Part shown: in pieces, positions 2,460 to 62,113 of the stretch | Layout: the number at the start of each line of letters is the position of its first letter | Numbering within the stretch: position 1 is the first letter of the stretch | Source of the DNA: Henricia sp. BOLD:AAB3569 | Lineage: Eukaryota; Echinodermata; Asteroidea; Spinulosida; Echinasteridae | NCBI GenBank assembly: GCA_037783545.1 | Contig: JBBELK010001010.1 | Location: 62,001-126,000, forward strand | DNA: 64,000 bases | Direction: 5' to 3' | The notes under the pieces: generated by a model | Database searches by the model: none | Told to the model about the DNA's origin: nothing | Seen by the model: only the letters and a program-made list of their open reading frames with translations | Program-made: the position numbers and the translations under genes

Positions 2460-2587
2460 GTTGAATCTTTGAAGGTCGATCTCCGAATGGCAAAAAACGG
2501 ATTAAATCGTTAATATATATAACTACTCATTATGCTTATACCTCTGGTTTTTGTGCTCATTATGAACATATATATTCCCTGCTGTCT

Positions 2588-3040: not shown

Positions 3041-3178
3041 CGGACGTTATAGACAGCAGGGAATATATATGTTCATAATGAGCACAAAAACCAGAGGTAT
3101 AAGCATAATGAGTAGTTATATATATTAACGATTTAATCCGATTTTTGCCATTCGGAGATCAACCTTCAAAGATTCAAC

Positions 3179-34800: not shown

Positions 34801-35036
34801 TTGCATGATAGATTTGCATAAATCCTACATGTTAAATGAACATGTTAAAACATATGTACTCATCGTCAATTTTCGTCAAAATGAACAACTCAGATTCGGT
34901 GAAGAAAACTCAAAGGTATTTATGTGTCGACAGTTATCAAATCGGATGTATGCATACAGTCAATGACTCGGACTAGAAATGATGGGAAACTTGGTAAACG
35001 CTTCCTGCCTGGGGCCAATTTCATGGCGCTGCTTAA

Positions 35037-36230: not shown

Positions 36231-36761
36231 TAAGCGCTAGCTGAAAACGTGTGCTTACTGTATGTATGTAGCAGAAACAATAATCGTGATCTTTTGCTAT
36301 TTCACATTGTGACGTTAATTAGGGATTAAAGTGGGTTTGGTCGTTTGAAACCGGCTAATGGCCTGGACGATCGAGTGAAAATGGTTCGAGATAATGGCCT
36401 GAGTGTTTAGGACTAACGGGCTGATCTTTATCGTCCGTTTGAAACTGGTCATGTGACGTGCTGTCACCAGTAGGAATGTTATAAATTGAAAATAACGCCC
36501 GGGTGCAAAGCGTCGTGCTCCAGTAACAACCCAAGCAGTTTTTGTAAATATATTTAGCTTTTAGGTACATAGACCAAACCCCGTCATGGTCGCCCCTGCA
36601 AAGGATCTATATTCCGTTTGGTGAGAAACCCGTATATGACTTATCACATACATTTTTGATAGTGTACCTTTTAACATTAAAATAAAATTTTAATTGGACT
36701 GGGAGGACATAAAGTATGTCCAACCGTCCGTTAATGTACCCGTGATTTTTCTCTTGTTTAG

Positions 36762-36821
36762 TGACAACGATGCTTGGAGGTATCTTTTCTCGGCGCAGGC
36801 GTAGGCGTACAAGTGCAGGAG
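36762..36821 (+). CDS. gene B exon 1 (proposed start-codon exon, polybasic)
   Basis: The acceptor ttctcttgtttag and donor gtaagg bound a 60-bp phase 1-1 exon. The ATG lies 8 nt inside, as in gene A. It codes MLGGIFSRRRRRRTSAG; the six Arg could act as a nuclear-localisation or nucleic-acid-binding patch (inference). Support rests on splice words, phase and the matching layout in gene A. Confidence 0.45.
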
Positions 36822-39800
36822 GTAAGGCGAACCGTCCGAAAACAGGCATGTACGCAATAATTGGCGTTAAATGTACCAAAGGGTGGAAAATACTTGGTTT
36901 TAAATACTGAACAATTAGCCCTATGGAAAATCAAAGGGATAGTTAGTGTAGCAGGTGGCCTAGGTTCAAGGACAGGATGTAACGTTTTTTCATTGTTATA
37001 GGTTTTCTCGTTTTTTTGCTGAACAAGTATCCGTCATTATGAAGCCAAGATTAGGCCAAAAGTTGTTTAGCATGTCATGGGCCCTTTAATATGTTTGTGC
37101 GCATGGTACTGTATTTGCATAATAGTTCGACAGGTTCGATGAAACGTAGGAATATTATATTTTATTCGCTCGAATTCATCAGAAATGTATTCGATTTCAT
37201 TGGTTCTTATTTATTTGCACGTTATTAAATTTCATTTAATATGCATTCACATTTTGTTCGCTGAGACATCCAGATTATATGTACAATTTGCGTCAATCAA
37301 ATACAAAGCATTGTATCTTCATTCAATCTAGCAGAAGCTCGGGGCTTGGGCGAATATAGTCTGGCAAATATAGTCTAGAATATTAGTTATTTTTAAAAGT
37401 ACCCTTCAAAATCAATTGTCTTTCGATCTGATGGTGCTTTCCGTATACATATTATCCCGTACCAGGTGAAACAGAAGACCAGCGTTTAAGCCCAGCTGTC
37501 TTGAAGAGGTTCGCCGACTGCATGCATGCACAGAAATGGAGGTGTGTCTTCAGAGACCTTATGTCCAACTACTCTGGGCAGCAGCCAGTCAACGTTCTAA
37601 TTGGGGACATTGAGGAGAGTTATCCACAGCAGCCAGTGGAGCAGAGGTATCGGGCGCTCTGTACTTGGCGAGAGAAGATGGGAGATCAAGCTACATTGCA
37701 AGTTCTTATGGAAACATTGGAGAAGAACGACTACCAAAACCCGTATGATGGAGAATCTAGTCACCAGTCAGGATCTATAAAGGATACAAGCAAATCAGAG
37801 CAGGAACATACTGGTGAGTACACATCAGAGTCTAATACTGACTCGGCGATAAGCTCCGTTAATATCAGCATTTTGCCGATATAGATCATATCGGCATCTA
37901 AATATCAACTAAAACCGATAGGGCCTATCAAATATTAAAGCAGTTTTTCAATGTACAAATTAAATTAGTGGTTTAGTTGTTCCTCACTGATTGGGGTTGG
38001 CTATCATGCGAGTATAGCAAGTCCTATACAAACCCTTCAATTGGAAAACCATCCCTCCCAGAGGGTGCAGGGTGCACTATACCGTGATTCGAGACCACCA
38101 GTTGGCTTTATAGCTCAATTGGCGTTAAATGTACCAAAGGGTGCAAAATACTTAAATACTGAACAATTAGTTCATAATATGATACAAACTGATGGAAAAT
38201 CAAAGGGATAGTTAGTATAGCAGGTGGCCTAGGTTCAAGGACAGGATGTGAAGTTTTTTCATTGTTATAGGTTTTCTCGTTTACTGCAAAAAAATGGGGT
38301 GTTAAATTTCTGGCACCAAGGTTTTTTAATTCTTTGGGTGTTACATTTGTGTCAAACGAACACCGGTGTTAGTCGGTTAACAGCAGAAAAAGTGGTGTAG
38401 ATTTTGCACTGTGTTACACTTGATAAACTGCGCTTGATCATAATCCGTGACGCTTATATTAGTTTTCCAATTGCTGATGGGATGTCGGTCACGTGTTCGC
38501 GCTCGCGCTTAAACAGTCGCTTGAGAGACATGACAGACGGTCTGTGGTTGAACACTCTACGTGTCATCGAACATGTCGAACTATTATGCAAATACGGTAC
38601 CATGCGCATAAAACAAAACAACTTTTGGCCTAATCTTGGCTTCATAATGATGGATTACTTGTTCAGCAAGACATACTATTGTTCGTTTGGATGTAAAATC
38701 AATAAAAGGTAGCCTTTTTCAACTTTCAAGATTTCATTGCAATAACCACAGACAGAGGGCGCTGTTTGGAGTGCATCACGTAAGGAAGACAGAAGGGAAA
38801 AGTTAAGAAAAAACAAGACTTCAAGTTGGACTTGTGGCAAATTGCTGCAGTTTTCTTCCCCAGTTTTGTCATGAAAAACAAAATCAAACAGGCATGGATT
38901 ACAAAAGTTCTAAGAAGTTTAAGAAAAAAGGTGAATTTTTTGTGCACAGTTGAGTGGTTTTCCTGTGTTTGCCTCTTGTGACATCATGACCTTCATCATA
39001 AATATGCATATTTACATTAGCATAACAACTAAAAACCTTTGTTTTAACTCAAAACAAGCTCCAAATAGGATGTTTATGACAAACTGAGTAGAGTGGTTTT
39101 ATAACATAGGCCTACATGTACCGTATTTCATTGATACAAATCCCAAATCATGGGCCCTTTAAGCTGGTATATAAGAACTGGCATTATGCTTTGTTGTACT
39201 AGGTGCATCAAACATTCTAAACGTCGATGCACCGAACCGTCCAAACGTCGATGCACTAAACGCAGGCGCACCGAACCGTCTTAACATCGATGAACGGCTG
39301 CTCCTTCGCATTTCTAAAGAGGGCAGTCCTGACTGGAAGCAACTGGCCATTAACTTGGGATTGAGCACCGCTGAAATCGATAGATTCGAAGCCGACAACA
39401 GGAACAACTTGATGGAGCAGTGCCGTAGGATGTTGGTCGCCTGGTGTAGGAAACAAGGCGGTGAGGAAGAAGCACGACAAGGACTCATCAATGCTCTGGA
39501 AGAAACTGGACGAATGGACTTGGTACATCTACTCGGTAAGAAAATAATTTGTGAGTACGGCACAACATTGGATCATAAAGTTAATGCAGTGCAACACATC
39601 ATTGAGCAAATTCGGAAAATGTGAATGTCAAGATACCCTGGTCAAACATACCTGTGTTCACAAAACCAACCGAGCTATCCAGTTTGCTGTTGACGATCTC
39701 CAAGGTGGACAATTAACCTTGTTTGGGACAGGGGACTGCGAAATAATTCTTGATACTAGGTACGGGGGCAGATTGTACCATTTTAGACTTATTTCAAGTC

Positions 39801-42800
39801 TGAGATCGCGCATACTTCACAAATTTATGAGAAGTACCTTAATTGGTGATACGCAATATCAGACTTGAAATAAGTCTAAAAAGCACAACCCATCCCCGTA
39901 CCTGATATCAAGATTTTGCTCTAACGCTTCCCCCTGTTTGAGACTGAAACCCCGTCATCACTAGAAAGCTAACTGTAAATTGTTGTGTTGTTGTGATTTT
40001 TGAGACGAAATAAAAGAAATGAAATGAAATGAAATGGTACCTCACTCCAGGGTTGATTTATCCAATAAACATCATAAGCACTGTGGCTTTGTTGACCACG
40101 TGCGGAAGCAGGGATTACGATCTGCACACATGATTTTGCATTTTGTTCGACATCTGAACTTTGTAGATCATTATTCTTATGGGTGTCCCTTTGGCAACTT
40201 TCAGCATTTTTAACAATATGCAGGTATAGAGTACTACAGTGAAAACGTCACCCTGTGTGTGTTACCAAGGTTACTGGGTCTACACTAAAACCATTGATCT
40301 GTTTCCCTGCGCTTTAGCAATGTACGTTTCAGATTACCAGCGAATGTTTAGACCCAGTTACCATGGCAACTGACGTCACACTTTAGTAGTCAATAGCCCG
40401 ATGTCGTTATGCACTATGCACATTTTCTCTGTAAAGTAAACTTTATTCATTTGGAAAAGAAATTTTTATACAATAAAAATTTATGAAAGGGGAATTTATT
40501 TAAAGAGGCGTTATAGCCAAAGAAAAAATACCTTGTGCTCCACATGTGCAAGTGCAGCTCGTAAATTTTAATGCAAAGCGCAAGCAGTATTACCTACTAC
40601 AATAAAGCTATTACGAACTTCGCAAAGACTGACAATTTTAGCGATGAGTCGCAGTATGGTCACCGCCATTTTTTCCGAATACTGAGCAAAGTCTTGCCGT
40701 ACAGGTTCTTTGTGCATTCCTTTGGCAATACGCACCCCTCCCTCCCCCGGCCCCCGCCCCTCCCCCGGCCCCCGCCAGCATTATGGAATTCCGTTATGCA
40801 TCATGCATGGGTTCCGTCCTGCAATAATGTTTGTTTTCTTGAGGTCATGATACCTGCAAGTGACGGATCTCTGTCGAACAGGAATACCTGAAACATACGC
40901 CAAATTGAAGAAACAATTGTGGGGTGAAAAAGGGCATCCAATCCAATCCAAAAGGGCATCTAATCCAATCCAAAAGGGCATCTAATCCAATCGCCGATCT
41001 TTCCAAAATAGAAAACTCAACCTCATTGGCTGCGCGTTGGACAAGCTAAAAACGTTTTGCGCTTCTCGACTGGCAGCGCACAAGCTGCAAACTGCAGCTC
41101 CTGTGCAAACCAATGGCACACGCGCGTATTTCCGCGATGGTGTGAATGCCCCTTCGGACAGTTTATGCATCCCTATTGGCTGACAGCAGTTTTAAACTGG
41201 CGATAAACGCCCAATCAGTCTTATAAGGGCCGCACTATATCGTAGAAAAATGGCTTTGCGCGCGGCTGCTCCATAGGTTTGTATACAGGAGCTGGTTTGC
41301 CGCTTGTGCGTGGCCAGTCACGACGCGCAAGACGCTTTGGGCTGGGTCAAAGTTCAAATATGGTAAACTTTGACGCGGTGCGCTGAACTTTCCAACGCGC
41401 AGCCAATGAGGCATCAGAGAAGCCCCAAGTTACTGCAGCAGTGAAATTTTTCTATTTTGGAGAGATATATGGCTGGGACCTCATCAGACTCCCGAATTTT
41501 CCGCTTTGTTTTTTTGCCAGATTCCGTTCTTTAAATTTCAAATTCCGTTTTTTGCTGGTGTTAATTTTGGCAAAATTCCGTGAAAACAACGGTGTTATTT
41601 AAAACTACAAAAAAAACACATGTCTGCTACTTTTTGCTGGCTAGATGATCGGCTACGGTGTGTTTGCGACGAAATTCTAAGCTATGGGAACAATATTTGC
41701 AGAATAGGATGCCATCTGAAACATAAAGTATACTTAGGGAAACCGACGAACTCGGAGATCTGGCGATAGAGTTTCGTTTTTCAGTTTTCTGGACGGCAAA
41801 GCCTTCCACCTTTTCAACATTTCTCCAGCATGACAGCTCACATGGAGTGATCACAGCCACAGATCACGCGTCTTGCACATGCATGATGCAGCATAGACTG
41901 GTTCCCATCCACATATTCCACACACTTTGTCCACATGACAAATAAATATCGGAGTATGAATAGGCGATTGGATCGAGTACCAATCTAAAGGCAACACAAA
42001 ATTTAGCGGGTTCTCAGGCCATGCGTTACACATTGCAGGATACCACGGACTGTTTGGCAGCTGCCGATGGATCGATCTATAGGATTACAGGATTGGGCTT
42101 GGGCTTTCTTAATTCTAGGGCATTTCAAGAATTTGGAGAAAAAAACACTATGCGGCTTAAATACAAACTGAATTTGCGACTTTGTTATAATAATAATAAT
42201 AATAGTGGCCTCTTATAGAGCGCTCAGGTCCGTCAGGCATGACGCTCATGGCGCTGTACAAGCAAAATTTATACAAATACAAAAGAAAATACAATATAAC
42301 TATAAGACTATATAAGACACTATATAAGACTAACTTAACTTAGCTTTGGAGAGGATTCTTGCTGAGACTCGGAACAGTTCGGACGTGTTTGTGGGTGCCT
42401 TTGAGCGCGCCAAAATTTAAATCTGCGTCATCAATCACTCTGTGTTTTTCAAGTCTTCAAATCCTCTGATCTTCGATCAACCTTTCTAGCATACTTTGGT
42501 AAGCAATATCATAGAATCAGGAGGCCATATATTACCATTTTTGCATTATTATTTTTTTCCCAATTAGGCCTGAAATCGGTCAGAAATGGCCGATGACAGC
42601 GCCGATCCTGACACTTTATGGGATCAACTATCCCAATCTACGCCAATGGAAACCCAACTACCCAAATATGACGATCAAAAACCCCGTTCAACTATTGACG
42701 TCCTGATCAGCCAAGCCCAGAATAGCTCCCAATCACAAAATAAAAATAGGAAACGACCTAAATCAAGTCAATCCTATAGTGAAATATACACAGACTCCGA

Positions 42801-45800
42801 TAACGACCAGAGTAAACCTAAACGCCGTAACCTAACCCAAAGTAATCCTAACCAGCCAACGCTAATTATCATAAACTCGCCCGACATCAACCTTGCCAAA
42901 GTAAGTCCAATCAAAATTGCTAAAGCTCTTAATAATATAGGCGGTGGCATGATTAAGAATGTAGCTAAGAACAATAAAGGCGGCATAACGGTTCGATGTT
43001 ATACACCAGCCCAAGCACAGAAATTAAAGGGTATATCACAACTTGACCAGTGGGCGGTGACGACTGAGTATGCTAAATCTGAGATACAGAGTAAGGGCGT
43101 CATTACCGGCATACCTAGCGACATTACCGAAGATGACCTCCTTATAGCATGTGACCAGGACGGAGTGATAGATGTAAAACGCCTGATGCGCAGAATAGAC
43201 GGTCAACTGGAACCAAGCCTCTCTGTATGTCTAACCTTCAATACCCCAACCCTTCCCGAAAAACTACAAATAGGATATCAATATTTCACAGTGAAACCCT
43301 ACATCCCCCCGGTGATTCGATGCTACAACTGCCAAAGACTTGGTCATACTGCGACAAACTGCCGAAGTTCAACTCGCTGTGTGCGATGTGGAGAGGCACA
43401 CACTTTCGACCAATGCCACCAAAAAGAAAAGGTCAAGTGCTGCCGTTGCGGGGAGAACCATTCATCTGCATATGGAGGATGCAACACCTTTAAGCAAGAA
43501 AAGAAAATCCAGGGTTTGAGAATCACCTACAACATTTCCTACGCGGACGCTGCCAAGGCCATCAGAACAGACATCTCCATTCAACCGGACGCACTGACCC
43601 AATTAACGCCACGACCAAATCCTATAACAAGCCGATGGAACACCCCAGTAATGACTTTGCCACCCAACAACTCGACCATCAAAACAAAGATTCAGCCCCA
43701 AGCTCCGCCCCAAACAACACCCACCAAACCACGACCTAAACTTCAGGATGCAACAACGCAGACAGATCGAACAACGACTAGTACACAAACAGAACGCACA
43801 CACCAGTGTCTGTTCAATGAACAATACCTCATTGAAGCCCTGACAGGTGCGCTCCAAATCTGGGACACCATTAAGAAGAAAGACGAAAGAGTCACTGCCA
43901 TCAAATCACTCATTGACCACCTGGGCCATTCAGAAGAGGCAGCGAAGCACAAAGAAACTAAGCCAAGCAAACGAAGAGAATCATCTCAGTCTCCAGTTAC
44001 CACAAGGAAAAACGACCAACCGAGCCAGAAAACACCCCAAACTAAAATGCCCCCACCCAATACAACCAAACAAAGTAGCAGTCAATCCGCCAAGTCTAAA
44101 CCAAATAAAACATGATTACTTTCATTATGGCAAGTCTACTAATCCTACAATGGAATGCGCAATCACTTAATGCACATAATAAAGAATTTAAAGGTGCAAT
44201 TAACACTTGGACACCAAAACCTGATATTGTCTGTATCCAAGAAACATGGTTCAAAAAAGACAAAATATATACTTTACCAGGTTACGACATATACCGCAAT
44301 GACAGAAAAAACACATCTAAAAAAAGCGGAGGTGGTTGCGCATTCCTTGTCAAACATGGACTTGCTTTTAAATATATTTTAAGCTCAGACAATGATATTA
44401 TTGAATATCAGATTGGGGAAATTTATGATGCTAATAAAAATAAACTTAATATAGTAAATGTATATAACCCCTGTGCCTTTTTAAAAACCAATTCTTTTAA
44501 TCAAATCTTTGAGAATATCGAAGAAAAACAATGTATTATATGCGGTGACTTTAATGGTCACAATCCCATCTGGGGCAGCTCCAAACTTGATAATAACGGC
44601 CATATTATTGAAGACACCTTTTCCCAGCATAACTTTATCTGCATAAATTCTGGTGAAGGCACTCGGGTTAATACATCTCACAATTCACTCTCTTGCATTG
44701 ATCTCACCTTTGTTTCTCCTGGCATAGCTGCAAAATGCAATTGGACAGTGCTCGATGACACATGGGGAAGCGACCACTGTCCAATTGCTATTGAAGTTAA
44801 TCATCCCACTCATCGAAATGCAACCCATTCTGCTCCTAACTGGTCACTCAAAAAAGCTGACTGGATAAAATTCCAAGACGTTTGCAGTCAATACACCACT
44901 GAACCAAATACCTCTGGTGATATTGATATTGTTTATAATAACTTCATGGAACAACTCGATACAGCAATGACTAGCTCAATCCCTAAAACCAATCCGAACT
45001 ACCCCAAACCTCCAACATCCTGGTGGGATGATGACTGTAAAAAAGTCATTGATGACAAAAAGAATGCTCTGAAACAAGCTAGGAAAACTCGCCTCCCGGC
45101 TGATTTCATAGCCTACAAGAAAGCTTGCGCTATTGCCAGGAAAACAATAAGAAATGCTAAACGTAAAGATTGGGAAACCTTTTGCAATAATCTTAATCCC
45201 AAAACGAACACTAAAGTAATATGGAACAAAATCAAAAGCATCGAGAAAACACATTGTCGCAAAAGTATCCCAGTCATACGGTATGGTGATAACGATGCAA
45301 TTACTGATGAAGACAAGGTTGAGGCTCTTGCAGATAACTTTGCTAAAGTTAGCAGCAATGAGAATTATAGTCCTACCTTTATTAACAATAAACTAGAAAG
45401 AGAAAATGACCTTACTCTGACTGATTATAACGATAGTGTCATTAATGAACCGTTTACTCTGGAGGAATTGAACAGTGCTATTGATACCTCTAAATGTACT
45501 ACCCCAGGGAAAGACGGTATCAGCAATTTTGTGATTAAACACATTCCGACTAAAATTCGTGATTTCCTTTTAATCATTTTTAACATGATATGGCATAATT
45601 CCCAATGCCCCAAACCATGGAAGGATGCTATACTCATCCCCATCCTTAAACCTGGGAAAAATGCTACTAACCCAGTATCTTATAGGCCTATCTCCCTCAC
45701 ATCAACCCTCTGTAAGCTAATGGAGCGTATGGTTAACTCACGCTTAACATGGTACCTAGAAACAAATAATCTTATCTCATCTAAACAGAGTGGTTTCCGA

Positions 45801-48800: not shown

Positions 48801-51800
48801 TGCAGAAATCAAGACGAGAAGAGATAAGGGCGTGGACTAGTTGTTCAGTTGCATCTCGGGTCAGGTACTTGCGGACAAAGCTTAGGTTGCGAAGTTGGTA
48901 TCTTATGGACCTCGATATGTGAGAAACATGATCATTGAAGGACATGCTGGTGTCGAAGATAACCCCAAGATTGCGAGTTTTGGAAGATGGGTAGACTGTG
49001 TTGTTTCCTACATGGATGCATATTTATGTATCTGTAGGTACATGTATGAATAAGGAACTACATGTAGCTGTAAACAAACGAGTTGAACAAAGTTCAAAGC
49101 CTGTGATCGAAATTGTATTTTTTCGTAAACACTGTCGCTGTGTCTCTGATCATAGAGCAAGGAACAGATAAATCGCTCGTGTCTGTGGCACAAACATCAC
49201 TGGTACCCGCTCTCACGAGTTGCAACATTGAACACGTGCAACGGAGTAGTGACCAACACCATGATCATAATGTAAAATGGTAAAATGCACCAAGCACTAG
49301 CGGCCAACATTCCCAGTAGGCTACAGCTGCAGAAAAACGTTTTTGGTAATCATTTGAACAGGTACAGGTATTTCTTGCAATCAGATTGATTTATATTCTG
49401 CTGGGAAGAGTTCCCAATGATTGAATTTAGACAGTTTTGGAAGAAAACATGTGATTTCCGTTTTATTTTGAGTATTTTTTTTAATTCAATTTTATTTTCC
49501 GGATTCCGTGTTCTTAATCGGATTCCGTGTTTTTAATCAAATTCCGTTTTTCCGTCCGCGTTCTTCAGTGTGAACTCCCCTTCCAAACACTTTTAAGCGT
49601 GGCTCTCGGCCGCGCCCGCGCCCTGGTCAGCGCGTATGGAACACGCACACGTCACGCACACAAACCAAAGCAAATTGCGTGCACTGTGACCTACCCAGTC
49701 GTGTGCGCGTGCTTGAACAAAAACAACTCGACGCACGGCTAGCAGTTCATACGAACGTGGTAGAAAATTAATTCATGCAAAACATGGCAAAACAACAAGG
49801 TGTTTTGGTTAGTTTTACACAAAAAGGTACTTATGAATGGGATTGAAAGTAGGTTTGGCCAGTCTTTAAAAATCCGTTTAAAACCGGCTGGAGTCCTGGG
49901 CGTTGATAGTGGCCCTCTCCTAGCTGCTCGGGCCATAGACCGTATCGCCAATCGTGTTTTACCAACAGAGGGCGCCCTTTGCAATGCACTTTGGGATTGA
50001 ATATGGGTCAAATTTGCCCCATATTCAATCCCATAGTACATTGCAAAGGGCGCCCTCTGTTGGTGAAACACGATTGGCGATAAGGTCTATTATCAGTGCC
50101 CAAGACCCTAGCCTGTTTTAAACGTATGCTAAGACTGACGAAACCTACTTTTAATCCCTAAATAATTTACAAGTTGCACTTGTTGAGCTCAAAGTATTTT
50201 GTTTCTTGGGTATAATGCACCTTTTAATGCTTAATTATCAATTGCTCTTTATTGCCGCATTGGTGCTTGGACAAATGATCTTTGAAACCATAGTTCTTCT
50301 TGACGTTCAACAGGAGAGTCCCTTTCCAGCCGTGAGACCGAGGAGGCTGCTGATAGATGTGAAGAAGAATTGAAAAAGTGGTACACCGACGCTGGAGGCT
50401 ATGTGCAGATGCACCCATGGGAGGATGAAGACAAGAGGCCCATTGGGGATATGTACACCGAGCTTCACTTGGTGAAGGGTAAAGATGATGGCATACAAGG
50501 TGAAGTAGAGTCTTATAGGGATATGTTCGGCATTAAAAGAAAAGATGGTCATCTCGTTAAACGAGTAATTTGTGAGGGACAGGCTGGACTGGGGAAGACA
50601 ACCTTGCTTGACAAAATTGCCTACGACTGGGCAAAAGGCAATAATGAGGTACTGAAGCAATTCAAGCTCGTGTTTGTGTTGAAATTTAGCGCACTGCGTC
50701 AAGATTCAGACTTAGTGGCCGCAATATTTGACCAGCTCTTACCCGAGGACGCAGGTGTAGATCAATCTCACCTGAACACGTTCATTCGAGACAACCCAGA
50801 TAAGGTGCTTGTACTCATGGATGGTTTTGATGAATTCATTACAACTAATATCAATGCAAACGAAACCTTTGGTACCGTCTTAAAACTTCTCAACAGGAAG
50901 GTTAACCGAGAGTGTTTTGTGATTGTAACAACCCGCCCTTCTCATTATGCTACATTGACAAGTACAACGTTGATTGTGAAACCTTTCGCGCTAGTTAACG
51001 TCACGGGATTTACACGAAAAAACGTACAGCGATATGTAGAAAGGTATTACGAAAACGAAGAGAGCAAAGGACGTGGGCTTTGGGATAGGATCAAGTCGTC
51101 GAGTCTTCTTCATGAATTGGCAACGAGTCCCATGCTTCTGTTGTTGATGTGTCTGTTGTGGAATGAATCAAGTGCGCTGCCTGAAACAATGTCGCGTCTG
51201 TACTTCACGGGAATAGAATACATATTCGGAAGAAAAGGCCCTGACAAGTTAAAAGTACATGTAGCAGACATTATTATCAAGTTAGGTAAGGTTGCTCTTA
51301 GTGGCCTCACTTCCCCAGAGCAGAGACTTTCATTCAAAGAAACGGAGTTTGACAAAAACGATCTTGATATTGCTATTACAGCCGGTATCCTCACTCGCCA
51401 AAGGGTTCGGAAAGGTTTTAATGATGTTCACAATAGCATTCAGTTTATTCACAAGACATTTCAAGAATACTGCGCTGCTAAATATTGCCAAAATCTGTTT
51501 CAAAATGACCCTTACAAATTCCGAGGGACTTTTGCAAACTGCAATTTAGAAAGTCTGGAGTACCTACTTCGTTTCTGTTGCGGTGACAACGTCAATTGCA
51601 CAGATGCAGTTTTACAGTTGTTGGTAGAGAAGCAAATGGACGAAGACGAGAAAAGGAAATTGGGTCTGGCGTGGTTCTATGAGAGTCAAGCAGACGCACT
51701 GCCCTCGGAAGCGTTTTTAAATGTTGTTTTTCAAAAGAATTTGGACCTGAAGAATTATGGTATAGAGGGGATGCAATCGTTCCTGTACCTTTTGAAGATT

Positions 51801-54800
51801 GCGGTGGACCAGGACAATGACATGGTACGCAGGGTAGAAGGGTTCCGATGCTTCAACCTTTATGCCTCTTCATGGACCTGGGTAGAGGTGGATCAGCTAA
51901 TGCGTGGTATGCCCAACCTCATCACATTGAATCTGTTCTTCAATAGGGATCTTGGTGGTAAGGGTGCACCCTGGTCTCAATTAAAGGAAATGAAACACCT
52001 TCAGAAGTTGATCCTGTGGAGCTGCTCATTGACGGGTGACGATTTGAAAGCCATGGCCGTGCCATTGAGTAGTATGCCCAACCTCACCGAATTGGATCTG
52101 TCCCACAATAAGGATCTTGGTGGCATGGGTGCACCCTGGTCTCAATTAAAGGAAATTAAACACCTTCAGACGTTGACCCTGGTAGGCTGCTCATTGACGG
52201 GTGACGATTTGAAAGCCATGGCCGTGCCATTGAGTAGTATGCCCAACCTCACCGAATTGGATCTGTCCCACAATAAGGATCTTGGTGGCATGGGTGTACC
52301 CTGGTCTCAATTAAAGGAGATGAAACACTTTAAGAAGTTGGTCCTGCAGTACTGCTCATTGACGGGTGACAGTTTGGAGGCCATGGCCGTGACATTGAGT
52401 TGTATGCCCAACCTTGTCGAATTGGACCTGCACGGCGGTAATGATATCCGTGTCACAAAAGAAACCTGGCCTCATTTAAAGAAAATGAAGCACCTTCAGA
52501 AGTTGAGACTGGATGGTCGCACATTGACTGACGAAGATCTGAGTAGGGACATACCACCGATAACTTGGCGGAGTCGGATTCATTGTTATAGTAAGTATTT
52601 CTATCATTTTATCAGTAACTTTATATAGGCCTTTCGGGTCAGCTGGGCGCAATATTTTGACTGTTTTCTAATTAAATTCGACTCGGGTGTTTTTACAGTG
52701 CATATACAGGGTGTATATAAAAACAAGTATACACTCATGAGATTGTAGATAAAATGGAAATTGTATTATATTTAGAAAACTGGCTCAAAAATGAACGGGC
52801 TGGATCACTCACTATGCATTTGCTACGTACTTTGTGTGGAAAAATCAGACAATTTAAGAGTTGGTAATTGTAGTTTCCTTAAAATGTAGTGCCTTTCGTG
52901 TTTTCTTTTCACCAGTAACCTATTAATCCAGGATTTTCTTCTTCGTACAGATGAAGACAAGGATAGAGAAGCCAGTAAAACTCAAGATGATTCCGTTGTC
53001 ATGAAATCTGACAAATCTATGACCAAAATATTGCATACTGCACAAGACGATGTGAGTCCACTGCCCACAGTACGGAAATAATTGTTTGGTCGGGATTTCC
53101 TTCAAGATTTGAAGAGAAATTCTGAAAGTTTAACTTTTTTCTTGTTTTCTGAAATTAAGAAGACTTCAAAAAAAAATTTCATTTGTTTTGTTTTATTTAG
53201 ATATGCAGGAATGTATACATGCATGACTTTTTTTAAACATTAATAGGGCCCTATTGTTTTTATATCCTTAGTCTTTTCATTAAGTAAATATCAGCAGCAA
53301 CAGGATGATCATTGCATGTTTATATAGCAATCAAGTACATCATTACGTTGTTATCGAAGATTGTTGCCCTTTGTTGTGGTTTCAAATGTAGAATACAAAT
53401 TAAATTAAATTTTGGTGCAAATTCACCCGTTACAGCTTGCAGATTACAATTTTAATTTGCAGTATCTCAAACCTGTCATTTCAGGTGAGAGGACCACATT
53501 CCTGCCCAAAGACTCATCTACGGTTGGTGTTGGATGAATTCAACAAGTATACAGTTAACAAGGGTAAGAGGGACCGATGGGAAACACGCCTTCATCTGCC
53601 GTATATCGCTCTTGGTTACTTTGACCATAGAGGAGGGAATCTGGATCTTGAGGAGTATGGCGTCCACCTTACCATTCCACAAGGCGCATTACCCCAAGGC
53701 CGGGATCCCCAGATTGTGTATATCTACGTTGATCCCACATCACCACCACTCGAGAAAATGACACCACCAGAGGTGCCGCTTGCGCCCGTAGTTCAGTGCG
53801 GGCCTCAGGGCTTGAAGTTTGAAAAGAGCGTAATTCTGTCATTCCCACACAGTGCTAGCGGAAAAGATGACCAGATAAATCCACGCATGCGCCATGACGA
53901 CCCCACAGAGGGTGGATGGGAGGAATTTGACGGCAAAGCTATGCTTGTAACGGATGATAGAGTCATTTTTCTGGTTGACCATTTCACCCTGTTTACTGTA
54001 AGCCAACTACTGTCTGATGGAAGTGCTAAACTCCTGACCTTGGCTGCCTTTGGGCCTGACCTCGACTCAACATCTGGACGATATAGATTTCGTGTTCACG
54101 GTTGGAACTACGGTGACGAGGAAACACAAATGGTAAAATCCCACATTAATTATTTCATTTGTAAAAGTCACTTGGCTTGTAACCAGTAAAAGAATCGGTT
54201 TTAACAATGGGCAATATGGTCCACACACTCCTCTTAATTGTGCACGGTAAACTATTTATAATAGCTTGGATGAGTCTTCAAAATAAGAAAATAAAGTGTC
54301 TGTAAGATAAAGATTCTTGTTGTCAGTCTAATCTTTGGTGCTCACATGACAATGTGTGGAGAACAAATTCATTAATCTTTTGTGTTTCTTTACGAAAGAA
54401 TGTGAAAGGACAAGAAAAGGAGATGTCTTCAAAAATGTTGGACGTCTTCAACAGTCTTGTATTTTTCTGGAATCAAGGACACTTGGTTGTCGAAGTGACT
54501 GACTTAATTGAAGGCTGGACTACATGCGGATCGCGTCAGGAGGTAAGTGTTGTGATGCGAAGTATCCTGTATTTAGGGCACTATCCGGCAGAAATGTGTA
54601 ATTTTGCACTTCAATTGTTACCATAGCTTTTTTATTTGAAAATGCATTTGTGGTTTATCCTGGGAAGGGGTGGGGGAGGAAACCTGTATTCGTAATCCTC
54701 AGATAACTAGTGAAAATGGCATAGTAAGTAACCTCCATTTCTGATAACTGTAGAAAATCGCCAATGAGAAAATTCGTCATATTCCATCAAACTGGGTGGC

Positions 54801-57800
54801 CTTTGAGCTGACACAGCAGCAGCAGGCAGCATCATCCAGTGCAAGTGACCCAGATCTCTCCTGCAATGTGTTGAGTTACCAGGATTCGGCAGATGAGTAC
54901 ACACGCTCCTGGAACAAAGTCCGGTTTTCCATCCGCCCACAACTGGTCAGTACACATTTATGCAACAAAAACGAAACAGGACAATATACAAAACATTATT
55001 ACTACCCCTGATCATAGGGCTCTATTACATCACTCCATATATACGGGGTGGAGCCGTGCAGCACTTGTTTACATCTAGCACGCCCTCTGTTGTTTAACGG
55101 CAGGCAAACTAATTAATACAGCTTGGTCTATGATACTTCATAAAATCTATACATAATATTGACTTGTAAAACACAAGCTGTCTTTATTTGGCTAAATCAT
55201 GTAGCTTATGACACATGTGAGCTAGTTTAATGACAATTTTAGAAGTATTTGCTTTGAAACCAAAGATACGTAGAAAAAAACATGGACTTGCCTAGATGTA
55301 AACTAATGGGCTTTTTGCCTGTCCACTTTTGTCTCAAATAAACAGAGGGCGCCCCAAATGTAAACACATTTCACATCGTCTAGACCATCTCAGCTCTCTG
55401 GGAAGTATACAGCCCCAGCTGCGCTGCCTAATGGGCACTCAATGATACATTGAATCATTCTTGAAGTCTTGTACACACTTAATTTAAAAATTCACTTCTG
55501 GGTCTTTCTATAAATTAGGGGTACATTTTTGGTGTCCCCTGTTACATCTGACATCTTGGTTTTTTTGTAAATTCGGGACACGATCTTTAAACTTTCCATC
55601 TCAAAGAGTGAGTACATAAAGTACAGTTCATAAACAATTATTCTTGTATGAAACATAACACGTGTCACACTTTTGGACCCCTTTATAGAAAGCTCCTTCT
55701 CTAAAAACATCTTGCATGCAGAATGGACCCAGGGGACGTCGGAAGTGTGAGGAGCTGGCATGCCGCTGTACGTACGTTGGGGTAAGCGCAGTCAAACCTT
55801 AATACCCGTACCCTAGTCACACTAGAGGCGGAATGCCGTCGGAAGTGTGAGGAGCTGGCATGCCGCTGTACGTACGTTGGGGTAAGCGCAGTCAAACCTT
55901 AATACCCGTACCCTAGTCACACTAGAGGCGGAATGCCGTCGGAAGTGTGAGGAGCTGGCATGCCGCTGTACGTACGTTGGGGTAAGCGCAGTTAAACCTT
56001 AATACCCTAGTCACACTAGAGGCGGAATGCCGTCGGAAGTGTGAGGAGCTGGCATGCCGCTGTACGTACGTTGGGGTAAGCGCAGTCAAACCTTAATACC
56101 CGTACCCTAGTCACACTAGAGGCGGAATGCCGTCGGAAGTGTGAGGAGCTGGCATGCCGCTGTACGTACGTTGGGGTAAGCGCAGTTAAACCTTAATACC
56201 CTAGTCACACTAGAGGCGGAATGCCGTCGGAAGTGTGAGGAGCTGGCATGCCGCTGTACGTACGTTGGGGTAAGCGCAGTCAAACCTTAATACCCGTACC
56301 CTAGTCACACTAGAGGCGGAATGCCGTCGGAAGTGTGAGGAGCTGGCATGCCGCTGTACGTACGTTGGGGTAAGCGCAGTCAAACCTTAATACCCGTACC
56401 CTAGTCACACTAGAGGCGGAATGCCGTCGGAAGTGTGAGGAGCTGGCATGCCGCTGTACGTACGTTGGGGTAAGCGCAGTCAAACCTTAATACCCTAGTC
56501 ACACTAGAGGCGGAATGCCGTCGGAATGAAAATTATTCGTATATTCCGGGATATTCGAAGTGCATTCTATAAATTCTGACAGCATTCTGAGTGCATTCCA
56601 AACATTTGGGCTCATTCTTGTGGCCGGCCCAAATGTTTTGCTCATGCTCAAAACATTCGAGGTGCATTCGAAGAGGAGAAATATCAAACGACATTCGAAG
56701 TGTATTCTAACTGCATTCTGACTGCATTCTAAATATTCTTACGGCATTCCAACAGAATTTGAAACCTTCTGATCGCGTTCGTGGGAAAAATCGAAATGGC
56801 AAGCCATGGCAATCCTGCCAGAATGTTCCGAATGTGCCTCGAATGAGCCGGAATGCACCTCGAGTGCATCTTGATTGCTGCTGGAATCTATTTCGATATT
56901 AAAATAGTTCAGCTGGAATGCACTTCGAATGCCTTCTGAATATTTTGATTGCCGCTCAAAATCCTCGAATACATCTCGAATGCAGTCGGAACGTCCCGAT
57001 TGACCCTTGAATGAGTCCGGACGTAATACCTTCTGGGTTTTCTCCTCCTAATGTTTTTTCTTATAGCCTCCTCCACATCTCTTTCAAGCAGGTCTTGCTG
57101 GAGGACAGAAATCTGGAGCAAAGCAACATGGTCCAGGGGGTACATACTCTATGGTGTCTGGGCTGAGACTGATGAAAATACTAGATTCGGCAGCGTTTGA
57201 TACCCTAATCGGGTACCATTCCGGTGGCATTCTTGGTACACTCGGGACATTCGTGTTACATTCTTAGCACATTCGCCAAGTACATTATAAGTATTCCAGC
57301 TGCATTCTCTTTGAATTATTAGACGTTCGAAACACATTCGGGGGCTATTCCGGGAGCGTTCTGACTGCATTTGAGGTGAATTCGTACAGCATTCGAGGCA
57401 CCTTCCAACCAGACTTCGGGTGGTATTCGGGCAGCAATCGAACCGCACTCGTACGGCATTCGAAGTGCATTATTAATATTCTTACTGCATTCTAACATCA
57501 TTCTAAGTATTCCTACTGTGTTCCAACTACATTTGAACTGCATTCGAAAGCTAATACACCCGGAATGTGCAAGAATCATTCGAGGCGGGTTCGAAGCGCA
57601 TTCTAAGTATTCGAACAGCATTCTTACAAAGCTGTAAGAATGTTGGTTAGTTTGAAATTCCCGCCCGAATGTGGCACGAATTTTGAATTATTTTTTTTAT
57701 TCCGGCTGGTTCTGCTTGATTCCTGCTAATGCCGAATAAGTGTGACGGGGACTTTACAGCCTTGCTTCTTAGTAATAGATCCTTATCTTTGCAAGCAGTA

Positions 57801-58619
57801 TGTCACCTTCCCAATCAGCAGTTTGCGTCTGATTCGCTCCATAGACCGATACAGAGGGATGATGAGCGAAGCAGACAAACGATACAGACGAATGAAAAAC
57901 GGACCCAAGGAAATGTGGCTCACAGCCCTGAGCGTTAGTACGCATCAGTCTGCAAAGACTGTATTTTTGGAAAATTTGGAAGAAAATCAGCATTTTTCTT
58001 GATGTGTCGTTTGCTTTCAGAATGCCGAGTCAGCTTGTTCATCGAATCTTTGCGACTTCTGCAAAGTAAGAATCTTCCACAAGTTCAATATACAGTTTAT
58101 GCGGTCTTAATTTATAATTCCTTAATGTTCCTTATTGTTTTTGTATCAAAATTGGTTTATCCTTTAAAATGCATTTGTCACAAAAGTCGAATCATTTATT
58201 GATGACTTTCTGTCACACAGGAGCAATTCCGTCTGATGCAGTTCAGAAAACAGCACCGTGACGGCAATCCTAGACCACAGCAATTTTGTGGTTTGCCTGA
58301 AAAAGTCGTTATGAAACTCTGCAACCATCTTGATGAGGATGACGCCGATAAACGTCCCAGATGGAAACAACTTACCGACACCATCGGTAAAATGGGTAAA
58401 TTCAAACAGGATTTCGGGGCGTATGACTTTCTAGAAATGTTTTTTGAAGTGTGTCGAGCAAACGGTAAGGACAATGAGCAGTCGGTAAAATTTCTAGTTG
58501 CGGGCCTTCTTTCAGTACATTATGGTCGGGCAGCTCAGATTATAAAAGAAGGGATGGAGGATCGGGTGTCGGAGGTGGCCCCAGAAGGCCAAGCCTGTCC
58601 CAGGTCTGGTCATGAATAG
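36770..58619 (+). CDS. NLR gene B: Death-Death-NACHT-LRR-ZU5-UPA-Death protein
   Basis: Eleven exons join in frame: 36762-36821 (ATG 36770), 37466-37813, 39203-39535, 50314-52590, 52951-53051, 53485-54132, 54399-54542, 54754-54945, 57799-57933, 58021-58065 and 58221-58619. Junctions are phase 1 up to 52590 and phase 0 after. The protein is about 1557 residues: Death at 27-100, Death at about 160-243, NACHT with P-loop near 333 and Walker B near 409, LRRs at about 776-1000, ZU5 and UPA at about 1075-1365, Death at about 1449-1535. The tail resembles UNC5/PIDD. It is likely a cytosolic sensor signalling through Death adaptors. His1203-Phe-Thr closes the ZU5 module, where FIIND proteins self-cleave. 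No break is seen. Confidence 0.75.
36860..38660. repeat. rearranged repeat copies flanking the first Death exon
   Basis: The stretch from ggcgttaaatgtaccaaagg to tgttataggttttctcgttt occurs at 36863-37014 and again at 38123-38281. The continuation of the first copy (tgaacaagtatccgtcatta, tgaagccaagattaggccaa) returns in inverted orientation at about 38560-38675. The Death exon at 37466 thus sits between two copies of one element. A SINE head fragment (accaccagttggctttatag) lies at 38095-38125. Confidence 0.65.
37466..37813 (+). CDS. gene B exon 2: first Death domain
   Basis: The acceptor tatcccgtaccag and donor gtgagt bound a 348-bp phase 1-1 exon. The fold reads LKRFADCMHAQKWRCVFRDL, then IGDIEESYPQQPVEQRYRAL and CTWREKMGDQATLQVLMETL, which has the Trp, Leu and Ala-Thr-Leu pattern of Death domains. 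A Ser/Glu-rich linker follows. Confidence 0.75.
38713..39163 (-). mobile_element. MITE of the cttaaagggccc family
   Basis: In reverse complement it starts cttaaagggcccatga and shares tatcaatgaaata, cttttgtaatccatg, ttgaagtctt and cgccctctgtctgt with the innermost element at 29902-30438. It lies in gene B intron 2. Confidence 0.7.
39203..39535 (+). CDS. gene B exon 3: NVDxPN linker plus second Death domain
   Basis: The acceptor ttgttgtactag and donor gtaagaaaataa match gene A exon 4. Short repeats (NVDAPNRPNVDALN) precede a canonical Death domain: ERLLLRISKEGSPDWKQLAI, NLGLSTAEIDRFEADN, ARQGLINALEETGRMDLVHL. The Trp-Lys-Gln-Leu-Ala core is clear. Confidence 0.85.
39729..39936. mobile_element. 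208-bp TIR element in gene B intron 3, absent from gene A
   Basis: The ends caggggac and gcttcccctg-like, then ttgatactaggtacgggg and ccccgtacctgatatcaa, pair as inverted repeats. The words tttggga and tttgaga flank it, a likely 7-bp duplication. The colinear intron of gene A (near 18430) is uninterrupted. Confidence 0.65.
40229..40391. mobile_element. MITE in gene B intron 3
   Basis: The ends actacagtgaaaacgtcac and gacgtcacactttagtagt are inverted, and the inner parts ggttactgggtctacac and tagacccagttaccatgg also pair. A relative lies at 32916-33060. Confidence 0.7.
40730..41465. repeat. short tandem repeats and a TIR-like segment
   Basis: A C/G-rich duplicated word (cccctcccccggcccccgc) lies at 40736-40777. 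Three copies of a 24-bp aaagggcatctaatccaatc unit lie at 40929-40992. From 40996 (ccaaaatagaaaactcaacctcattggct) to about 41465 the ends are inverted copies (agccaatgaggc, then tttctattttgg), so this is probably another MITE. Confidence 0.6.
41466..42186. other. intronic stretch, nothing recognised
   Basis: No exon with proper splice phase and no clear repeat is seen between the TIR-like segment and the LINE cluster in gene B intron 3. Confidence 0.35.
42586..44115 (+). CDS. LINE ORF1, gag-like protein with three zinc knuckles
   Basis: The 509-residue product probably binds the element RNA in a nucleoprotein particle. Residues 1-100 are Ser/Gln/Asn-rich and basic. An RRM-like middle (ITGIPSDITEDDLLIACDQD) follows. 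Three CCHC-type knuckles start near residue 246: CYNCQRLGHTATNC, CVRCGEAHTFDQC and CCRCGENHSSAYGGC. The rest is Pro/Thr/Lys-rich. The ATG at 42586 opens 242 bp after the element start. Its stop overlaps the ORF2 start as atga (44112-44115), which suggests termination-reinitiation. The frame is intact, so the copy is fairly young. Confidence 0.85.
   Translation: MADDSADPDTLWDQLSQSTPMETQLPKYDDQKPRSTIDVLISQAQNSSQSQNKNRKRPKSSQSYSEIYTDSDNDQSKPKRRNLTQSNPNQPTLIIINSPDINLAKVSPIKIAKALNNIGGGMIKNVAKNNKGGITVRCYTPAQAQKLKGISQLDQWAVTTEYAKSEIQSKGVITGIPSDITEDDLLIACDQDGVIDVKRLMRRIDGQLEPSLSVCLTFNTPTLPEKLQIGYQYFTVKPYIPPVIRCYNCQRLGHTATNCRSSTRCVRCGEAHTFDQCHQKEKVKCCRCGENHSSAYGGCNTFKQEKKIQGLRITYNISYADAAKAIRTDISIQPDALTQLTPRPNPITSRWNTPVMTLPPNNSTIKTKIQPQAPPQTTPTKPRPKLQDATTQTDRTTTSTQTERTHQCLFNEQYLIEALTGALQIWDTIKKKDERVTAIKSLIDHLGHSEEAAKHKETKPSKRRESSQSPVTTRKNDQPSQKTPQTKMPPPNTTKQSSSQSAKSKPNKT
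44112..47858 (+). pseudogene. LINE ORF2: endonuclease, reverse transcriptase, RNase H (two frameshifts)
   Basis: Frame one (44112-46103) carries an APE-type endonuclease (LLILQWNAQSLNAHNKEF, ICGDFNGHNPIWGS, GSDHCPIAIEV) and the RT fingers and palm (SYRPISLTSTLCKLMERMV, AVFLDIEKAYD, NGVPQGSVISP). An extra C in the run at 46088-46093 shifts to the frame with QYADDIAIW, the catalytic box. A second shift near 46652, one base short in another C run, leads to the RNase H part (FLHIYTDGSLNPALD, FSAELFAILLALEW, FEWIPSHCGIAGNE) and a terminal CEDCGVSDNVEHFLLSC knuckle. All catalytic motifs are present; only the two indels disable it. Confidence 0.85.
48376..49011 (-). pseudogene. C-terminal RT remnant of CR1/L2-like LINE
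   Basis: The open frame reads NLGVIFDTSMSFNDHVSHIS, then HALISSRLDFCNSLF, SAARLVTLTKKACHITPVLQ and SLHWLPVEKRITFKVLLLVY, the familiar thumb and post-RT region of CR1 and L2 elements. It ends with a natural stop at 48376. The catalytic palm and endonuclease are missing, so it is a 5'-truncated dead copy. Confidence 0.8.
49013..49835. other. intronic stretch, nothing recognised
   Basis: AT-rich DNA to about 49560 is followed by CpG-rich sequence at 49570-49740. No exon with fitting phase or recognisable repeat was found. Confidence 0.35.
49836..50158. mobile_element. ~320-bp hairpin element in gene B intron 3
   Basis: The two halves pair almost throughout: gggattgaaagtaggttt with aaacctacttttaatccc, and cagagggcgccctttgca with tgcaaagggcgccctctg. 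The symmetry centre is near 50018. Confidence 0.85.
50314..52590 (+). CDS. gene B exon 4: NACHT-LRR exon
   Basis: The acceptor ttgacgttcaacag and the perfect donor gtaagt bound 2277 bp, phase 1 at both ends. P-loop GQAGLGKTT lies at 50577-50603 and Walker B LVLMDGFDEF near 50808-50837. ECFVIVTTRPSH and the winged-helix word FIHKTFQEYCAAKYCQ follow. Three LRR pairs repeat with a 165-bp period from about 51956, each with PWSQLKEMKHLQ, CSLTGDDLKAMAVPLSSMPN and LTELDLSHN. Gene A has two such units. Confidence 0.9.
52951..53051 (+). CDS. gene B exon 5: charged linker
   Basis: The acceptor cttcgtacag and donor gtgagt give a 101-bp exon that changes phase from 1 to 0. It codes a Lys/Asp/Ser-rich linker (EDKDREASKTQDDSVVMKSD) between the LRRs and ZU5. 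Confidence 0.6.
53485..54132 (+). CDS. gene B exon 6: ZU5 and start of UPA domain
   Basis: The acceptor cctgtcatttcag and donor gtaaaa bound 648 bp in phase 0. ZU5 is recognised by GYFDHRGGNLDLEEYGVHLT and IPQGALPQGRDPQIVYIYVD, then FEKSVILSFPHSA. The module ends FLVDHFTLFTV; His-Phe-Thr lies at 53980-53988. The UPA domain opens with LLTLAAFGPDLDSTSGRYRF, matching the LAVFGP style of UNC5. Confidence 0.85.
54399..54542 (+). CDS. gene B exon 7: UPA domain, middle
   Basis: The acceptor ctttacgaaag and donor gtaagt bound 144 bp, phase 0-0. It codes SSKMLDVFNSLVFFWNQGHL and VVEVTDLIEGW, which correspond to the loop and strand order of UPA domains in UNC5 proteins (inference from pattern). Confidence 0.7.
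54754..54945 (+). CDS. gene B exon 8: UPA domain, end
   Basis: The acceptor gataactgtag and donor gtcagt bound 192 bp, phase 0-0. It codes KIANEKIRHIPSNWVAFELT, a Gln/Ala/Ser-rich loop and SWNKVRFSIRPQL, the expected closing strand of UPA. Confidence 0.7.
55498..55692. mobile_element. TIR element in gene B intron 8
   Basis: The ends ggtctttctataaattaggg and ggacccctttatagaaagct are imperfect inverted repeats about 195 bp apart. From 54946 to 55497 I see no other feature. Confidence 0.5.
55738..56519. repeat. 91/101-bp tandem array built from a transposon end plus flank, eight copies
   Basis: Eight units each read gtcggaagtgtgaggagctg, cgctgtacgtacgttggggt, then ccctagtcacactagaggcg. The last part is the terminus of the Harbinger-like element that follows. 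Two length classes differ by a 10-bp cccgtaccct-type insertion and recur in mixed order. Confidence 0.9.
56490..57755 (-). mobile_element. PIF/Harbinger-like element, copy 2, with transposase N-terminal stub
   Basis: In reverse complement it starts gtccccgtcacacttattcg and ends ctctagtgtgactaggg, matching copy 1 at 35037. Much of the interior is gcattcgaa-type degenerate repeat shared with copy 1. Minus frame 56909-57145 begins with a stub reading DHVALLQISVLQQDLLERDV, EEAIRKNIRRRKPRRYYVR. This resembles the N-terminus of Harbinger transposases (Arg-rich then a Pro-Arg-Arg-aromatic word) before it runs into repeats. It is non-autonomous and lies in gene B intron 8. Confidence 0.65.
57799..57933 (+). 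CDS. gene B exon 9: linker to C-terminal Death domain
   Basis: The donor gttagt and phase 0 at both ends fit the flanking exons. The acceptor is tandem (gcaagcag): using the first AG starts the exon at 57796 and adds one Gln. It codes YVTFPISSLRLIRSIDRYRG and MSEADKRYRRMKNGPKEMW. No domain is recognised, so it is less certain than its neighbours. Confidence 0.5.
58021..58065 (+). CDS. gene B exon 10: 45-bp microexon
   Basis: The acceptor tttgctttcag and donor gtaaga enclose 15 codons (NAESACSSNLCDFCK), phase 0-0. It contains three Cys. Confidence 0.5.
58221..58619 (+). CDS. gene B exon 11: C-terminal Death domain and stop
   Basis: The acceptor ctgtcacacag opens the last exon in phase 0. LPEKVVMKLCNHLD and RPRWKQLTDTIGKMG match the KLC-x2-LD and W-x2-L start of UNC5-type Death domains. 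Later helices read AYDFLEMFFEVCRANGKDNE and QSVKFLVAGLLSVHYGRAAQ. The TAG is at 58617-58619 and an attaaa polyadenylation-like word follows about 25 bp later. Confidence 0.8.
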   Translation, partial: EQFRLMQFRKQHRDGNPRPQQFCGLPEKVVMKLCNHLDEDDADKRPRWKQLTDTIGKMGKFKQDFGAYDFLEMFFEVCRANGKDNEQSVKFLVAGLLSVHYGRAAQIIKEGMEDRVSEVAPEGQACPRSGHE

Positions 58620-61919: not shown

Positions 61920-62113
61920 TCACCGGCAGCCTTCAAGATTAAGACGTGGGCTCTGAAGGCCGACCATATCATATCCGGATGCATATCAGCAGCCATACCC
62001 CCGAGCGCCCCCCCCCCCCCCCCCAGCCTGCCAGGCATAGGCCTGAGCCACGTGCTGGTCCCTGTGGTCAGTGCTGAAGAACTGGGCACTCGTGTAAACC
62101 CGACAGGTCTCGA

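Follow-up and report, generated by a model that had tools for sequence, protein, structure and literature searches.

A candidate chimeric gene joining a Death-Death-NACHT-LRR receptor to the ZU5-UPA tail of a TRIM-NHL family

Vertebrate NLRP1 has the domain order (PYD)-NACHT-LRR-ZU5-UPA-CARD, and the cytoplasmic part of the receptor UNC5B has the order ZU5-UPA-Death. PIDD1 comprises LRRs, two ZU5 domains, a UPA domain and a Death domain. Part of this order is given in PMC3210808, which places the CARD8 cut at F296/S297 and the PIDD cut at HF/S, equates CARD8 F296 with UNC5B L677, and describes threonine as generally capable of acting in autoproteolysis. For rat NLRP1, PMC8081665 locates the cut at F968/S969 and names H942 as the proposed catalytic residue.

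For invertebrates, a 2024 survey, in its available portion, lists Death-NACHT-LRR in sea urchin and mentions FIIND-CARD in human and fish (PMC11508797). These NLRD receptors, found in sea urchin, amphioxus and sponge, are described there without a ZU5-UPA-Death tail. NACHT and ZU5 in one predicted protein are already reported, in cnidarians (PMC8260672) and, as NACHT-Zu5, in early diverging animals (PMC12909245); the accessible text of both gives the function as not known and leaves the order, LRR, UPA and Death unstated. The main text of a ctenophore paper (PMC11797021) contains no ZU5, and PMC8195603 reports TRADD-N proteins fused to FIIND or UPA-ZU5. Among the papers listed by literature searches with most subscription journals outside them, none was seen to describe the order Death-Death-NACHT-LRR-ZU5-UPA-Death or a TRIM-NHL-ZU5 protein.

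Within a window of 64,000 nucleotides (C1010:62001-126000 of a 740.7-Mb genome), we rebuilt a plus-strand gene of 11 exons from the sequence. All introns are bordered by GT-AG, the phases are compatible, and the joined frame is open over 1558 aa, which bears out the claim of an earlier note that eleven phase-compatible exons share one frame. Exon 1 (36770..36821), a putative start of 17 codons and one base, has an ATG with an in-frame stop upstream at 36743 and a strong donor, GAG/gtaagg; beyond this donor, its support from codon usage is weak, with a score above 92% of the background segments. Codon scores of exons 2-4, 6 and 11 lie above all 300 background segments and those of exons 5, 7, 8 and 9 above 98-99% of them; exon 10 does not stand out. 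By a general splice matrix, not one specific to the source organism, the acceptor of exon 5 is the best of the gene (7.2 bits, 99.8th percentile of 3529 AGs), the exon 4 donor (ATA/GTAAGT) reaches only the 95th percentile, and the exon 6 donor and the acceptors of exons 7-9 only the 85th-89th. The weakest donor of the model (75.9th percentile) is that of exon 9 (57796..57933), a linker whose 3' end is uncertain, and exons 1 and 9 are the least certain of the model.

The N-terminal half begins with two Death domains. Exon 2 (37466..37813) encodes Death domain 1 (Pfam Death, 1.7e-6; 28.5 bits, cut-off 22.6), and exon 3 (39203..39535) encodes Death domain 2 (Pfam Death, 2.8e-15; 56.6 bits, above cut-off), whose nearest solved chain is the PIDD Death domain (PDB 9tuf, 3.6e-11; 2of5, 1.8e-10). 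Exon 4 (50314..52590) comprises a NACHT domain (about 50562-51059; Pfam, 9.8e-29; 100.8 bits, above cut-off) followed by ribonuclease-inhibitor-like LRRs (Pfam LRR_4, 3e-15, above cut-off), with tandem 165-bp units at 51907-52506, about 3.6 in number. The best PDB match of the exon is NLRC4 (3.3e-27), in the NACHT part, and the nearest solved structures to the LRR part are NLRP1 or ribonuclease inhibitor. The features of an NLR are present, namely NACHT, LRRs C-terminal to it and N-terminal death-fold domains, here two Death domains. From the intron phases, we infer that these two domains are carried on the same transcript as the NACHT-LRR exon.

The C-terminal half begins with a linker, exon 5 (52951..53051), which is the first exon of a tail cassette discussed below. 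Exon 6 (53485..54132) carries a ZU5 domain (Pfam, 7.1e-21; 74.7 bits, above cut-off) and the start of a UPA domain, which continues in exon 7 (54399..54542) and ends in exon 8 (54754..54945), itself with counterparts in the family loci. Among solved chains, the ZU5 is closest to ZO-1 and UNC5B (phmmer E 3.2e-9 for UNC5B). The UPA scores 14.5 bits in the whole window protein against a Pfam cut-off of 27, and no UPA was reported by Pfam when fragments of the protein were scanned. In five of five same-genome relatives scanned, a UPA follows directly after the ZU5, every one under the cut-off (E-values 8.8e-5, 1.3e-4, 3.6e-4, 4e-4 and 0.1), and we accept the UPA of the window protein as likely real. 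If the predicted LRR-ZU5 junction lies on one transcript, a FIIND-type ZU5, above the cut-off, and UPA, below it, would stand behind the LRRs.

After exon 10 (58021..58065; 15 codons), exon 11 (58221..58619) encodes a C-terminal helical domain and the stop. Neither a Death nor a CARD match was reported by Pfam for this exon in the window protein or its fragments, and its sole PDB match is an unrelated enzyme at E 0.47. Locally, it aligns where expected with the Death domain of UNC5B, with a score reached by 25 of 2000 shuffles, and a profile of the exon-11 family against UNC5-type Death domains gave a probability of 2.9% and P 0.015. In a profile search of the PDB, three unrelated bacterial chains came top and the p105 Death domain appeared only at E 0.7; among four exon-11 family members scanned with Pfam, one gave Death at 0.031, but one also gave DUF4802 at 0.00065. 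Against a home-made profile of UNC5-type Death domains, the score of the C-terminal domain was reached by 52 of 5000 shuffles and equalled by one of 213 window ORFs; against a mixed-set Death profile, 764 of 5000 shuffles reached it and at least four of 204 window ORFs scored higher. Because the UNC5-type profile also missed Death domain 1, a low score with it is not decisive. From its place after ZU5-UPA, exon 11 is likely a divergent Death domain, which we treat as a candidate only. The order Death-Death-NACHT-LRR-ZU5-UPA-Death put forward in the earlier note holds at Pfam cut-offs for the two N-terminal Death domains, NACHT, LRRs and ZU5; its UPA stays under the cut-off, and its C-terminal Death domain is without a Pfam match.

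This predicted protein shares NACHT, LRR, ZU5, a likely UPA and a further C-terminal domain with NLRP1, as well as a Phe at the cleavage position. It differs in having Thr after that Phe, a candidate Death domain instead of CARD at its end, two Death domains instead of PYD, and a tail that is common to a TRIM-NHL-ZU5 family of the same genome. With PIDD1 it shares LRRs followed by ZU5, a likely UPA and a probable Death domain, an HF[S/T]-type motif and, in Death domain 2, a closest match to the PIDD Death domain; unlike PIDD1, it has a NACHT domain, N-terminal Death domains and one ZU5. The order of the tail is that of UNC5B, a receptor with an ectodomain and Gln-Leu-Gly at the cleavage position, whereas no Ig or thrombospondin ectodomain is among the Pfam families of the conceptual protein. 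Judged on the conceptual protein, the predicted gene is not classed as an NLRP1 (no Phe-Ser, no CARD), a PIDD (NACHT present) or an UNC5 (no ectodomain). Its NLR half resembles the NLRD receptors, and the presence of NACHT and ZU5 in one protein resembles the cnidarian and early-animal predictions.

To place the tail, we used a whole-genome ZU5 search, which gave 35 ZU5 exon places on 20 contigs; of the 34 beyond the window, 24 were compared in 10-kb stretches. Twelve loci (L013-L016, L018, L019, L022-L025, L027 and L028) carry relatives of both exon 5 and the ZU5, the latter 65-80% identical in amino acids to the window ZU5. Three of them, L023, L024 and L025, are near-copies of one another; they are three of the four ZU5 places of equal score and frame at C490:352210, 695394 and 1038944 and C1245:144511, those on C490 being spaced about 343 kb apart. 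Within the sequence examined, exons 7 and 8 were found in seven of the 12 loci. Exon 11 was found in three of four downstream stretches, 60-62% identical to that of the window; the fourth, L031, downstream of L028, gave no exon-11 match. Exon 10 has a counterpart in order in all three loci examined, and exon 9 has one for its first 10-13 codons only in two of three relatives, with a weaker match of 8 codons in the third. Except for the 3' part of exon 9, the predicted exons 5-11 are a family cassette, and the window gene has its sequence of exon 5, ZU5, UPA, exon 10 and exon 11. Counting the window, 11 of 12 rows keep the acceptor of exon 5 (L025 is without it, and L024 is outside the set), and exon 5 is for this reason read as an internal exon. 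At the donor, several of its relatives carry GC in place of GT (GATGCGAGT in L016, L019, L022, L027 and L028).

Upstream of exon 5, eight of the 12 loci (L013, L014, L015, L016, L018, L022, L027 and, in the extended stretch L033, L019) have mutually related propeller-type exons. The head of L027 is, by its domains, of TRIM-NHL type, with a Pfam NHL match (8.3e-9) preceded by RING (6.9e-9) and three B-box stretches (4.3e-24). Pfam scans of other propeller exons yielded only sub-threshold propeller or NHL matches, and these exons were assigned to the NHL type by similarity to L027 (38-45% over long matches). In six of seven loci tested, the exception being L027, the last propeller exon ends in CAG/GTAAGT in phase 1, which is also the phase of exon 4 of the window. 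The tails of L023, L024, L025 and L028 have no detected NHL head in the 7 to 14.8 kb examined upstream, and no NACHT-LRR was detected upstream of exon 5 in any of the 12 loci at E<=1e-3 over the 5.5-14.8 kb examined. The window, for its part, gave no TRIM (RING/B-box) or NHL match at E<=1. The tail relatives are like TRIM-NHL proteins in their NHL-like propellers and, in one, RING and B-boxes, and unlike them in adding ZU5-UPA and, in the three read, the exon-11 domain; the window gene is without the TRIM/NHL part. As an observation in its own right, the genome holds a multigene family with NHL propeller, ZU5-UPA and C-terminal domain (for example L027:3284-8655 and L016:3194-9612). Four members (L013, L016, L018 and L019) have two successive ZU5 exons, comparable to the two ZU5 domains of PIDD. 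Pattern scans of viral contigs with the ZU5 and NACHT exons and of prokaryote genomes with the ZU5 exon confirmed no relative.

The tail exons of the window appear to be under constraint rather than decaying. Against ten family sequences, the ZU5 exon has dN/dS of 0.36-0.68 and no stops, and exon 11 has 0.50, 0.58 and 0.88 against three relatives. Private codon changes in exons 6-8 number eight synonymous and 12 replacement, an N/S of 1.5; ten family members range over 1.0-9.0, and the window gene falls close to the constrained extreme, with fewer rows in exons 7 and 8. These values speak for constraint; in the ZU5 exon, the family as a whole shows it too.

The NLR half belongs to a second multigene family. 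A search with exon 4 gave at least 77 matches on at least 32 contigs, a lower bound with 59 of 103 candidates scored. C1010 carries a tandem cluster at 17740, 45875, 81445 (the 19-kb copy), 112316 (the window gene) and 149526, and among the matches listed it is the only contig found both in the ZU5 list (20 contigs) and in the NACHT-exon list (at least 32). In three of five copies read (L036 and L037 on C1010, and L039 on C291), the stop comes 6-7 codons behind the EDL of the last LRR, and in L038 (C1010) it comes earlier. Over its residues 1-508, exon 4 has 97% amino-acid identity with one NLR copy (95.8% over 769 bases). The 19-kb copy (18117..21495, plus strand) consists of an exon 3 counterpart at 18117-18258 and a NACHT-LRR exon at 19354-21495. 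It has also lost the LRR-end stop, reads about 24 codons further and is rearranged in its 3' part; compared with exon 4, it has a dN/dS of 0.74 as a whole, 0.52 in NACHT and 1.13 in the LRRs, where synonymous changes are few. No ZU5 tail was found behind it, and with its 3' part rearranged we rejected it as a sign of an ancestral tail. In its exon 3, the linker, frame and donor are kept and the Death domain is gone, 39263-39533 being without a counterpart. The 165-bp LRR units number 2.4 in this copy, compared with about 3.6 in the window gene and more in other copies, reaching an open frame of 1079 aa at C1010:149526, which suggests copy-number change of the LRR sensor part.

Homology to the two families ends and begins within a short stretch of the window. 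NLR-family homology reaches 52552 at most, and tail-family homology starts inside intron 4, at 52779-52787 in six of ten loci and at 52854-52940 in the other four, which sets a breakpoint interval of 52552..52779 (plus strand). This interval holds a new coding extension and the donor ATA/GTAAGT at 52590/52591; the LRR-end stop is gone, and the exon 4 donor would join exon 5 in phase 1. Within the interval, 52571-52702 resembles a piece of L020 outside the ZU5 exon of that locus (74% over 138 columns), in which GTAACT stands at the position of the window donor, and L023, like L024 and L025, has a separate 55-base match (52671-52723), which in L023 is 5.5 kb upstream of exon 5. Since the acceptor of exon 5 is strong and conserved, the exon should be spliced to something upstream, and the nearest upstream coding exon found is exon 4 of the NLR, in matching phase.

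The loss of the stop alone is no sign of fusion, as the 19-kb copy has lost it with no tail found, and this copy lowered our estimate for a single fused gene; on the sequence, we still regard such a gene, with a transcript spanning both halves, as probable. A reading as two neighbours, an NLR ending 12 codons past 52590 and a 5'-truncated TRIM-NHL-ZU5 gene whose beheaded tail is a remnant or starts inside exon 5, seems to us unlikely. It draws on the NLR copies that stop right after the last LRR, on the tail-less read-through of the 19-kb copy and on the NHL heads of the tail relatives. Without splicing, translation of the window NLR would end at 52626-52628, and an ATTAAA follows at 52671; ATGs that lie in frame within exon 5 would permit a separate start, and the exon 4 donor, at the 95th percentile, lies in the L020-like stretch. 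Against it stand the conserved acceptor, with no TRIM/NHL exon in the window to feed it, the mere 360 bp between exons 4 and 5, the absence of AATAAA from 52591-53484, and tail exons that have no stops and a constraint like that of the family, although the 97% identical NLR copy allows a fusion so recent that tail constraint could not decide the matter. A phase-matched donor this good would also be a rare coincidence. In 20,000 random read-throughs, with frames started in selected non-exonic parts of the window, a phase-1 donor as good preceded the first stop in 4.7% and a phase-1 GTAAGT in 0.6%. A junction made by assembly or by joining two haplotypes or loci is far less likely again. The region is repeat-rich: a minus-strand repeat element at 35035..36234 recurs in inverted orientation at 56486-57754, inside intron 8, positions 1-5615 form a near-perfect palindrome, and sequence like that of the junction interval occurs in other parts of the genome. 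Against this reading, the window contains no N, the junction is away from the large inverted repeats, its phase matches, and three relatives are colinear with the window from intron 8 to exon 11, also across the inverted repeat.

If the gene is fused, its tail may act with or without self-cleavage. By alignment to UNC5B around L677, His1203-Phe1204-Thr1205 (HFT; 53980..53988, plus strand) falls on Q676-L677-G678 of UNC5B, the place of CARD8 F296/S297; the aligner sets a one-residue gap at HFT, so the placement is good to one residue. The Phe-Ser of NLRP1 and CARD8 is absent, with Phe-Thr at the aligned position, and Thr would take the part of nucleophile that Ser has in the known SF/S or HF/S motif. 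HFT is the only HF[S/T] in the whole window protein, and from composition the chance of such a motif at a fixed place is about 1e-4, or 3e-4 given the hydrophobic middle residue. It is the commonest state in the tail family (nine of 15 rows), and in the four double-ZU5 loci the downstream ZU5 reads HFT in every case, with a UPA seen behind it in two; their first ZU5 copies read HLA, HSA, HFA and HFA, all ending in Ala. At the possible cut site, two UPA-adjacent relatives read HVA and HFG. The nearest candidate catalytic His is at -30, not -26, and is kept in 14 of 15 rows. We know of no test of Thr autoproteolysis in a ZU5 protein. Self-cleavage of the window protein at HFT seems possible, if doubtful; NLRP1-like release of the C-terminal part, at which HFT hints without demonstrating it, seems slightly less likely. 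Conditional on the fusion, a tail of UNC5 kind, in which ZU5-UPA-Death is a closed module opened by the sensor with no cut, comes close to an even prospect: Thr stands in place of the motif Ser, the His before the Phe position is kept in 15 of 15 rows irrespective of the residues that follow, and ZO-1 and UNC5B are the closest solved chains. UNC5B itself, however, has Gln-Leu-Gly at the three positions, and HFT is both the commonest state and the one kept downstream in all the double-ZU5 loci.

On balance, the best explanation overall, which we hold somewhat more likely than not, is a chimeric gene, an NLR with the tail cassette of a TRIM-NHL-ZU5-UPA-(Death) gene. An NLR of the multicopy Death-Death-NACHT-LRR family would have lost its stop, and recombination, either at the end of its final exon or a little way into the intron behind it, would have attached exons 5-11 from a TRIM-NHL-ZU5-UPA-(Death) donor, the joint using a phase-1 intron already present in the tail family and bringing ZU5-UPA-(Death) into frame. 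The earlier note had offered two origins. An independent solution to the NLRP1 design gains support, as the halves come from two separate multigene families of the same genome, in which unfused members of both are present. A layout close to an ancestral one we reject: the halves lie in separate families, and their homologies end at different places, at 52552 for one and at 52779 or later for the other. We favour a local chimera that has converged on the NLRP1/PIDD plan over an ancestral design. That it is a second, non-vertebrate origin of an NLRP1-like self-cleaving sensor, made by one recombination and with Thr replacing Ser, is a little less likely than the release itself.

As for function, we infer a signalling route from the domains. 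The NACHT-LRR half would sense a signal and, with the ZU5, keep the UPA-(Death) end silent; the chain might cut itself at His-Phe/Thr (1204/1205), as NLRP1, CARD8 and PIDD do at Phe-Ser; and, with the N-terminal part removed or opened, UPA-(Death) may oligomerise. The PIDD-like N-terminal Death domain may recruit RAIDD- or FADD-like adaptors. If the gene is transcribed, the NLRP1/PIDD plan would have been reached by convergence, from identified donor families and at an identified breakpoint, and the way in which an NLR gains a releasable C-terminal effector could be tested by setting the fusion beside its unfused relatives. The same-genome family of TRIM-NHL with ZU5-UPA, whose single and double ZU5 copies vary at the possible cut residue, provides a natural series in which ZU5 autoproteolysis can be tested.

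The large introns of the gene hold further elements. Intron 3 contains a LINE-type retrotransposon (42574..47855, plus strand) with zinc knuckle, endonuclease, RT and RNase H as separate ORFs, identified by Pfam, and intron 8 contains a 100-bp tandem unit in about eight copies (55737..56526). At the start of the window, 1-5615 is largely an inverted repeat, with 1-1669 and 3947-5615 100% complementary, and is either a fold-back element or an assembly artefact; a C2H2 zinc-finger ORF lies within it at 1779-2501 on the minus strand. Downstream of the gene, a second endonuclease-RT element occupies 60738-62575 on the minus strand.
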